Source of the DNA: Desulfonatronovibrio sp.
GTDB lineage: Bacteria; Desulfobacterota; Desulfovibrionia; Desulfovibrionales; Desulfonatronovibrionaceae
Assembly (NCBI GenBank): GCA_003566455.1
Contig: PXDF01000077.1
Coordinates: forward strand, 1-44,249
Length of the DNA stretch: 44,249 bases
Direction of reading: 5' to 3'
Part shown: piece by piece, positions 572-26,380 of the stretch
Position numbering within the stretch: position 1 is the first letter of the stretch
Layout of the letters: each line of letters begins with the position of its first letter
Notes under the pieces: model-generated
What the model saw: only the letters and a program-made list of their open reading frames with translations
Databases searched by the model: none
Told to the model about the DNA's origin: nothing
Program-made: the position numbers and the translations under genes

Positions 572-817
572 ATGCTGAACGATCTTGCAAACTCATTACC
601 GCCGGTCATTACCCGGAAAAAGATAAAAAAATATTTTGGCGAAGTCGTTACCCCTGGTGCGCTGGCCAATGCCGACAGCCGGGGCACTGGCCCCCGGGTG
701 CGTTACAGGGTGGGCCGGGACATAATGTACCCGACTGCCTATCTGCTGGAATGGCTGGAGAGCCGCAGTTTTATACAATTTAATAATGTCGAGCATCCGA
801 AAGATGCGCCTCCTTGA
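572..817 (+). CDS. Small excisionase-like DNA-binding protein
   Basis: The product is 81 residues. The ATG at 572 was chosen because GGAGG at 559-563 sits at good spacing; an upstream in-frame start at 506 would overlap the preceding gene heavily. The pattern is a winged-helix/excisionase-type fold: a helix with ITRKKIKKYFG, a turn region with a GALANADSRGTGPR-type segment, then a basic strand RYRVGRDIMYP and a terminal helix ending EWLESR. Such proteins are common in prophages and integrative elements of sulfate reducers, where they bind DNA near the control or packaging region. The role here is inferred from shape only. Confidence 0.55.
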   Translation: MLNDLANSLPPVITRKKIKKYFGEVVTPGALANADSRGTGPRVRYRVGRDIMYPTAYLLEWLESRSFIQFNNVEHPKDAPP

Positions 818-1672: not shown

Positions 1673-1710
1673 GATTTAATCCACTTTTTTAATGAATACC
1701 TCAAAAAAAC

Positions 1711-1740
1711 AAAGCCTCAGAATCCATTCTCCGGGCTTTT
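1711..1740. terminator. Possible second hairpin terminator
   Basis: AAAGCC (1711-1716) pairs with GGCTTT (1734-1739), enclosing a second short stem AGAAT/ATTCT. An A-run precedes and a T-run follows, as in a bidirectional terminator. The inner loop is very tight, so this is tentative. Confidence 0.35.
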
Positions 1741-1807
1741 CGCAACAAAACCCATGCCTTACCTCATACCATACAGCACAGGGCTTTCTATGGCTTCACG
1801 TATATTG

Positions 1808-1829
1808 CCGGAATAAATGGACATTCCGG
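1808..1829. repeat. Short hairpin upstream of the 111-bp repeats
   Basis: CCGGAAT (1808-1814) and ATTCCGG (1823-1829) are perfect reverse complements around an eight-base loop. It lies about 50 bases before the tandem repeat pair. It does not share the repeats' flanking sequence. Confidence 0.5.
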
Positions 1830-1878
1830 AACCGCTACTGTGACCAGGGAACTGGCCGGCAGGATCAATGAAACTGCT

Positions 1879-2099
1879 GCGCCTGGGGATAGGGTCAGCG
1901 ATGGGGCTTTGCATTACAGAGTTTTGAGGAATGATGGATCTATTATTGCGAATCGCAATAATGACCCCGTCCCGGAGTGTGAATCCAATGCGCCTGGGGA
2001 CAAAGTGAGTGGCAGACAGTTGGAAAGCAGAGTTTACAGGCAAGAAAATCATATTCCCACGAATCGTGGGAATAACCCCGCCTCAGAGTGTGAGCCAAT
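1879..2099. repeat. Two tandem copies of a 111-bp repeat, each with a nine-pair hairpin
   Basis: Copy A starts at 1879 and copy B at 1990, both with GCGCCTGGGGA. By eye they match at 66 of the first 104 positions, best at the two ends. Each contains a perfect hairpin with loop AAT: ATTATTGCG/CGCAATAAT at 1942-1962, and ATTCCCACG/CGTGGGAAT at 2053-2073. The stems differ at four positions, and all four changes are compensated on the other arm. Frame 1 is open from 1696 to the stop at 2106 and translates the copies as a 37-residue repeat (pattern APGD-[RK]-VS ... RV-x-R ... NR-x-N-x-P ... ECE). It has only a GTG start (1840) and no clear ribosome site. Whether the DNA, an RNA or a protein is the functional form is open. 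Confidence 0.7.
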
Positions 2100-2145
2100 A
2101 TCTTAATGCTTGACAAAACAGGCATGACCGAGCAGGAGTTTATCA

Positions 2146-2745: not shown

Positions 2746-2911
2746 CACAAAATGCCCGGATAATTTTTAATAGCGTATCGATAGGGTATCGATAGGGTAT
2801 GGTTCCACAACATGCCCGGATCAAACAGGAAAAAAATAATGCCGTCCAAGGTACCCTGAACTTTTTCCCTGAGCTGGCCCGGGAAAAATTGTGGAATCCC
2901 AGGTACCCTGA
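2746..2911. repeat. Cluster of nested direct repeats (iteron-like)
   Basis: Three repeat pairs are packed in 166 bases. CACAAAATGCCCGGAT (2746-2761) recurs with one change at 2806-2821, exactly 60 bases on. GTATCGATAGG repeats in tandem at 2775-2785 and 2786-2796 with a partial third copy. AGGTACCCTGA occurs at 2849-2859 and 2901-2911. It may be a protein-binding or replication-control site of the integrated element; this is inference from layout only. Confidence 0.55.
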
Positions 2912-4111: not shown

Positions 4112-4188
<77 letters not shown>

Positions 4189-24684: not shown

Positions 24685-24973
24685 CTGATTTCACGTTAGG
24701 CAAGAAAAAGTCAAGGGGAAAAAATATCATCTGGTTAATTTATTTTAAGAAAAGTTGGGCATAATAGGGTAACATCTTTCATTTATTGACTTTTTTTATA
24801 ATAATTTTTTTTAAAAAATATTAAATTGTTTTTTAAAAAAATTGATTTTTTGTATAGTTACGGGCAGCGATATCAAAAATTATTAACTCCATACCGGGGC
24901 TGAGTATCCCCCAGGCCCAGTTTAACAGCCCGTATCAACAATAATTTTCAGCTTGATGTGATCAGGAGAAAAC
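24685..24973. other. AT-rich divergent intergenic region between mraZ and pyk
   Basis: This 289-base region drives mraZ leftward and pyk rightward. On the minus strand TTGACT (24709-24714) could be the mraZ -35 box, though its partner -10 is poor. On the plus strand TATAGT (24853-24858) is a possible -10 box for pyk. The core (about 24780-24850) is very AT-rich. Confidence 0.35.
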
Positions 24974-26380
24974 ATGCATACCAAAATAATTGCCACCATA
25001 GGCCCTGCCTGCCGTGAAAAACATATGATCACAAAACTGGTTCAAGCGGGGGTCAGAATTTTCCGTCTGAATTTTTCCCATGGATCAGCTGATGATTTCA
25101 AAGATATATTTGTAAGAATCAGGGATGTTGAACAGGAGACCGGAACCAACCTGACCATTCTCCAGGATCTGTCAGGACCCAAAATCAGAACCGGAGACCT
25201 CAGGCAATCACCCATGTCTGTCAACACAGGAGATGAGGTGAGTATGGGTCCATCAGAATACCTGGAAGATTATCCTCAATACATTCCTTTTGATCATGAA
25301 AGAATTCTCGCGGACTTAAGGGTAGGAGATATTGTAAGAGTCAGCGATGGAGGACTTAAATTTGAAGTCACGGAACGTCAGGACAGGATTGTCAAGCTTC
25401 TGGCGGCTGACACCGGAATCATTACTTCGCGGAAGGGTGTGTCCTTTCCCGGAATCAAAACCTCTATCTCCGCCCTGACTGAAAAGGATAAAAAAGATCT
25501 TACTGATGGCCTGAGAATGGGCATTGACGCTGTGGCCCTGTCTTTTGTCCAGGGTCCTGAAGACATTGCCGAAGCTAAGGACATTATTGAGGATCAGGGC
25601 ATGTGGATCCCTGTGGTGGCCAAACTGGAAAGGGAAATAGCTTTGAGAAGGCTGGAGGAAATAATTGATATCTGTGACGCGGTCATGGTAGCCAGGGGGG
25701 ATCTGGGGCTGGAATGCCCCCTTCCGTCCCTGCCCACGCTTCAGAAAAGAATTATTTCATCATGCAATGAGGCTGCCAAGCCGGTCATTGTGGCCACGCA
25801 AATGCTTTTATCCATGGTCCAGAACCCAATGCCGACCAGGGCTGAAACCACTGATGTTGCCAATGCTGTTCTTGATGGGGCCGATTGTCTGATGCTGTCT
25901 GAAGAAACCGCCATCGGGCAATATCCCCTGGAAAGTGTCTGCTACATGGGAGAAATAGCTGAGCAGGCTGAAAAGCTGTTTTTTGAAAAAGGGATCAGCC
26001 CTGTTAAGCCCAAAAAGGAGGGAGGGGAGACTTTTCTGGCCTTTGCCGCTTGTCTAATGGCCCAGAAGGTAGAGGCCAAGGCCCTGGTGGCTCACACGGA
26101 TTCAGGATTTACAGCGAGACTCATAAGTTCCTGCAGGCCTTTGCAGCCAATCTACGGTTTGAGTCCCAATGTCAATATGCAGAAGTACATGAATTTTTCA
26201 TGGGGGGTGTTATCAGTCAACATTTCAGAAGACCCCAAGGATCACCTGCAGAGGACAGAAAAATTCGTGGAAAATTACCCCAGCTTTTCCCCGGGCGACA
26301 AACTGGTCATCACCGCCGGTCATCCCACGGCAGGACAGGAAAGATCTCTGACCAACCTGTTGAAAATATACAGGAAATAG
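24974..26380 (+). CDS. pyk: Pyruvate kinase
   Basis: The enzyme converts phosphoenolpyruvate and ADP to pyruvate and ATP in the cytoplasm. The 468 residues show the N-terminal strand TKIIATIGPAC, the metal/ATP site with RLNFSHGS, the catalytic lysine in AKLER (K217, usual motif KIEN), MVARGDLG (238-245) and the PTRAETTDVANAVLDG activation-helix region. A C-terminal domain follows. AGGAG precedes the ATG. It is divergent from mraZ. The KLER variant keeps the catalytic Lys and the metal-binding Glu219, so activity is expected. Confidence 0.95.
   Translation: MHTKIIATIGPACREKHMITKLVQAGVRIFRLNFSHGSADDFKDIFVRIRDVEQETGTNLTILQDLSGPKIRTGDLRQSPMSVNTGDEVSMGPSEYLEDYPQYIPFDHERILADLRVGDIVRVSDGGLKFEVTERQDRIVKLLAADTGIITSRKGVSFPGIKTSISALTEKDKKDLTDGLRMGIDAVALSFVQGPEDIAEAKDIIEDQGMWIPVVAKLEREIALRRLEEIIDICDAVMVARGDLGLECPLPSLPTLQKRIISSCNEAAKPVIVATQMLLSMVQNPMPTRAETTDVANAVLDGADCLMLSEETAIGQYPLESVCYMGEIAEQAEKLFFEKGISPVKPKKEGGETFLAFAACLMAQKVEAKALVAHTDSGFTARLISSCRPLQPIYGLSPNVNMQKYMNFSWGVLSVNISEDPKDHLQRTEKFVENYPSFSPGDKLVITAGHPTAGQERSLTNLLKIYRK

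Follow-up and report, generated by a model that had tools for sequence, protein, structure and literature searches.

The O gene of phage lambda carries the binding sites of its own product between the DNA-binding and C-terminal parts and is an established case of an origin located within an initiator gene. A similar origin has been discussed for phage RepA (PMC7157519). Another layout of this kind is the ParT-parS system of Streptomyces plasmid SCP2: Sukhoverkov et al. (PMC12260392) report that ParT, an HTH protein without CTPase domain, recognizes an inverted repeat of 18 bp that lies in the coding sequence of ParT itself. NTP-independent clamp sliding from parS is a further trait of the ParT system. 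We took SCP2.04c, which adjoins parA, as the presumed parT; the only perfect 18-bp inverted repeat found in it is TGTCTCCAATTGGAGACA, directly after the HTH, which makes it a candidate parS.

We compared with these systems two hairpins, or dyads, found in the window, meaning here the whole stretch of 44,249 nucleotides that was analyzed. The features concerned are the following.

575 to 817, forward strand: possible AlpA/excisionase-like ORF, upstream (Pfam HTH_17, E 0.028, weak and below the cut-off)
1696 to 2108, forward strand: open frame with the HTH remnant, 136 codons open
1825 to 1941, forward strand: HTH domain, first copy (SGTATVTRELAGRINETAAPGDRVSDGALHYRVLRNDGS), from tblastn and family alignment
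1879 to 1989, forward strand: repeat unit 1, half of the HTH containing the recognition helix, and linker carrying dyad 1
1900 to 1929, forward strand: recognition helix of copy 1, DGALHYRVLR, from the family alignment and predicted L026 helix 72-87
1942 to 1962, forward strand: dyad 1, ATTATTGCG-AAT-CGCAATAAT, perfect over 9 bp
1990 to 2100, forward strand: repeat unit 2, half of the HTH with the recognition helix but no first HTH helix, and linker carrying dyad 2
2011 to 2040, forward strand: recognition helix of copy 2, GRQLESRVYR, from the alignment with copy 1
2053 to 2073, forward strand: dyad 2, ATTCCCACG-AAT-CGTGGGAAT, perfect over 9 bp
2052 to 2074, forward strand: dyad 2 extended to 10 bp, TATTCCCACG-AAT-CGTGGGAATA
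4112 to 4188, reverse strand: tRNA-Pro(ggg), 3' end turned toward the remnant, possible site of integration

The original prediction had described two adjacent copies of 111 bp, each with a perfect nine-pair hairpin and an AAT loop, whose stems differ at four positions that are all compensated. All of this was borne out: the copies (111 bp each) are identical at 68 of 111 positions without gaps, and the stems differ at pairs 4 to 7, with four of the four differences compensated. Across the 44-kb window, a census revealed only two perfect 9-bp short-loop stems elsewhere; since these two others exist, one such stem is not rare, while two in register with compensation are. In simulations that used the divergence found outside the hairpin, chance retained the perfect 9-bp stem in 4.9e-4 of the runs, and a perfect stem together with at least four compensated pairs appeared in 1.8e-5. 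When the homologous L025 site was aligned with both copies, 26 of 27 cells paired and four pairs covaried, a score reached in 1 of 500 shuffles, with three sequences only in the alignment. Perfect palindromes may also arise from quasi-palindrome correction (template switching) or chance, with no selection at all, considering that template switching is able to alter both arms together and that the window copy is degraded. We consider this very unlikely, as it leaves unexplained the fixed place of the dyads behind the recognition helix across unrelated genes and phyla.

The frame is open as proposed, but its 37-residue repeat turned out to be a piece of an HTH protein and not a free repeat. Among conventional starts, GTG 1840 alone (88 aa) lies ahead of most of the homologous part. 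In tblastn searches with the homologues only 1825-1977 and part of the second copy align, the first HTH copy matching L026 (E 5e-11) and L025 (E 1e-9), the second weakly matching L025 (E 0.005). Both copies have 18 of 37 residues in common and their differences are distributed as 13, 11 and 19 over the three codon positions, suggesting that protein-level constraint is mild at best. From the alignment, each repeat unit reads as one recognition helix plus one dyad. The zinc-finger-like start and the C-terminal domain of the family are absent, and we therefore read the gene as a remnant; with these N- and C-terminal parts missing, the window copy may do nothing now. Its position between small phage-like ORFs and tRNA-Pro points to the remnant of an integrated element, the tRNA gene being a possible integration site. 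The possible AlpA/excisionase-like ORF ahead of it has counterparts in the elements G028 and L017. Elsewhere in the source genome, neither the element nor the hairpin pattern was found. We also noticed direct repeats of ATAGGGTATCG (2.8 copies, window 2770-2800) in the non-coding stretch after the HTH remnant, and an AT-rich, near-palindromic tandem repeat at 24802-24851, ahead of the ORF at 24974.

The window frame is homologous to a small unnamed family of HTH proteins present in viral contigs (phages and satellites) and a few bacterial genomes. In its members a conserved KCxLCN motif marks the N-terminal part, the HTH ends in VSxxALxxRV, the linker varies, and most have QLxRIxxDDPxRxEALxxVxxWI as a C-terminal stretch. 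Pfam, PHROGs and NCBIfam gave no reliable family name. The model of L026, built on seven sequences (mean pLDDT 70), shows helices and a disordered linker (87-108), so that the dyad-bearing linker is predicted to be disordered and to lie between the HTH and a C-terminal helical pair. Foldseek found no significant match of the model in PDB or BFVD, and VIA-align gave rows, many of them for homeodomains, that all stayed under Z 8. Few relatives turned up when 348 genomes of the order and 395 of the phylum were searched with profiles; a first scan of genome contigs found nothing, as did phage tblastn with the L011, L026, L014 and L072 proteins. Two zinc-finger profile matches (L048, L049) were discarded as non-homologues from their translations. 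Upstream of the family gene several elements carry a cro-like or excisionase-like gene, and the next gene downstream is ParB-like in four phages, by weak Pfam matches, or primase-like (L017 and, judged by translated sequence, the G028 element). A 9-bp palindrome, TATAGACGA-ATT-TCGTCTATA, is located at L068:6702-6722 upstream of the G028 excisionase-like gene and is perhaps an operator.

The search for homologues with the hairpin, named in the original prediction as a check, was successful: most have a dyad at the corresponding place, directly behind the recognition helix, with arms that differ between them.

L025: TATTGTCTcG-AAT-CaAGACAATA
L011 and L017: TGGGCG-AAC-CGCCCA
L018: ATGTCA-AAG-TGACAT
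L031: TCTATgTGTTCG-TAA-CGAACAaATAGA
L009 and L021: TGGCA-N3-TGCCA

With the window excluded and one member kept per close pair, the combined Fisher p at the dyad place was 3.4e-7 against shuffling and 4.7e-4 against the background of the same phages. These independent homologues support the claim of selection for symmetry beyond common descent. All three codon phases are represented among the dyads, and inspection by eye shows no conservation of the peptide at these places, indicating that the constraint acts on nucleic acid. L009 and L021 have a low N-terminal identity (0.46), similar recognition regions (0.79) and identical arms, the pattern that joint movement of helix and site would produce, something that eight sequences cannot prove. 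The palindrome is present as a single copy per phage. A dispersed operator was rejected, as no second good palindrome copy was seen in the phage sequences examined, and so were iterons, extra half-sites being found in L031 only. In that locus (L031:3102-3200) the half-site CGAACA occurs twice more within 80 bases after the dyad, in an iteron-like way. Counting against a cognate site, some dyads are short (5-6 bp), and those of L019 and L026 (main family), L072 (sister family) and L204 are weak or absent by themselves.

As the dyad place was chosen after seeing the window, a sister family retrieved by searches with the L014 protein offered a cleaner test. Dyads were found in L070, L073, L074 and L014, and an imperfect one in L072. 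When loops were restricted to three bases, a first test gave a negative result (p 0.66); it turned positive when loops of 3-5 were allowed, with an out-of-sample p of 3e-4. In two further distinct sequences, L075 and L078, 8-bp arms flank AAAT. At L075:1980-2960 the sister-family HTH, dyad included, is fused to a segment that contains a DPPW motif and resembles a methyltransferase of the MT-A70 type. In a seven-sequence alignment the covariation score was reached in 0 of 500 shuffles; covariation had also been named as a check in the original prediction. A score of at least 6 was obtained for 73% of 22 loci compared with 3.7% of 4993 coding windows, and the comparison without the window and L121 gave p 7e-9.

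We also scanned IMG/VR viral contigs for GGTNNNACAAATGTNNNACC and found complementary arms in 8 of the 80 matches listed, with 1.25 expected. One of these eight, L121, represents another kind of HTH gene, in which an 11-bp dyad follows directly on the recognition helix. Actinobacterial relatives of L121 carry dyads after the HTH in an Arthrobacter plasmid gene (14 bp; the identical protein is found in a Pseudarthrobacter plasmid), in another Arthrobacter plasmid (11 bp), in Propionibacterium phage PFR2 (12 bp) and, imperfectly, in Mycobacterium phage prophiGD43A-5, while prophiGD43A-1 has none directly behind the HTH. A second long inverted repeat, CGAGGCCGTGAAATTTCGTCACGGCCTCG, is located at L205:3405-3433, in the C-terminal part of PFR2 orf30.

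We asked whether the symmetry belongs to DNA or to RNA. Only one GU pair was present among 73 counted paired cells, from two small alignments with sites picked for symmetry, a lean, not a proof, toward a site in double-stranded DNA rather than a hairpin in RNA. The RNA folds of the window copies are stable (z -2.4 and -2.6) and the loops of the AAAT group are A-rich on the coding strand without exception, as would suit an mRNA cis element for processing, translation or antitermination. Such a role is rather unlikely, considering the single GU pair and the predicted minimum-energy folds, which ignore or do not favor the hairpin in L025, L019, L009 and L021; moreover, Rfam gave no match at gathering score in the window region or in six homologous loci. 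A boxB/nut-like element was rejected because, by eye, no upstream boxA was seen. The hairpin could alternatively be an antisense RNA terminator, like lambda OOP within cII, and the 5' flanks of L021, L009, L011, L018 and L031 are indeed A-rich (T-rich on the other strand). This is the most doubtful of the readings, because the T-run is absent in L019, L025 and window copy 1 and the flank follows lysine-rich coding. Of the three readings left open by the original prediction, DNA fits best, protein is real but partial and RNA is weaker. On the coding strand many spacers are rich in A (AAT, AAAT); this asymmetry is superfluous for a symmetric dimer and counts against a cognate site.

Window dyads and homologues have an inverted repeat inside their own gene after the HTH, SCP2.04c being the positive control. 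As in ParT-parS, the HTH protein has no CTPase domain (no Pfam match to ParB/Srx in the window ORF, L009 or L011) and a C-terminal domain lies beyond the linker. Unlike in ParT-parS, the N-terminal half differs, the arms vary among relatives, a ParB-like gene or primase adjoins, the module is in tandem in the window, and no ParA match was seen among six window ORFs scanned by Pfam. L033 and L034, found through the family C-terminal domain, match ParT (E 2e-9 and 5e-9, from a tiny database), and L033 has an inverted repeat after its HTH with 13 of 14 pairs; both thus have a ParT-like front with the family C-terminal domain. L026 itself gave no match to ParT, and direct homology of the family to ParT is putative. 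Considering that no ParA is seen in the scanned window ORFs and that the sites are putative, we claim a likeness of working with ParT and not membership. The lack of a named element, as first proposed, holds for the tandem arrangement, while a parS within its own HTH gene has already been published for ParT (PMC12260392); in the open-licence literature the layout was not reported in phages beyond ParT. Canonical ParB-parS also combines an HTH protein with a palindromic site, and ParB-like genes adjoin in several phages, but the present protein has no CTPase domain and its site sequence is not conserved.

Together with the ParT precedent, these data make it reasonably probable that the dyads act as cognate, parS-like sites for the HTH protein whose gene surrounds them. 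Each dyad would be a double-stranded DNA inverted repeat serving as the loading site of that protein, acting as a dimer presumably joined by the C-terminal helical pair, with one recognition helix per half-site. A new protein specificity would then require a matching change in both arms, producing compensated changes, and tight linkage would let helix and site travel as one cassette. The window would hold two such helix-plus-site modules in tandem, left behind in a degraded mobile element. Such binding may serve the element's partition, its maintenance or its autoregulation. The dyads could instead mark a replication origin, with the HTH protein as an initiator binding within the gene that encodes it, in the manner of lambda O, and with sites in both cases between the DNA-binding and C-terminal parts. 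This is unlikely: a primase-like gene adjoins the family gene in L017 and the G028 element, but there is one dyad per element where lambda has an iteron array, and partner genes in several phages are ParB-like, not helicase or primase.

Beyond the cognate-site reading for this family, the chances seem evenly balanced that a palindrome behind the recognition-helix codons is a general design shared by mobile-element HTH proteins in two or more phyla, ParT among them, and that helix and site form a cassette that is exchanged, covaries and can be duplicated as a unit, as in the window. If true, target sites of many uncharacterized phage and plasmid DNA-binding proteins would be readable from their own genes, providing naturally matched recognition helices and DNA sites for studying the evolution of binding specificity, and hinting at a role in maintenance or partition that has been overlooked.
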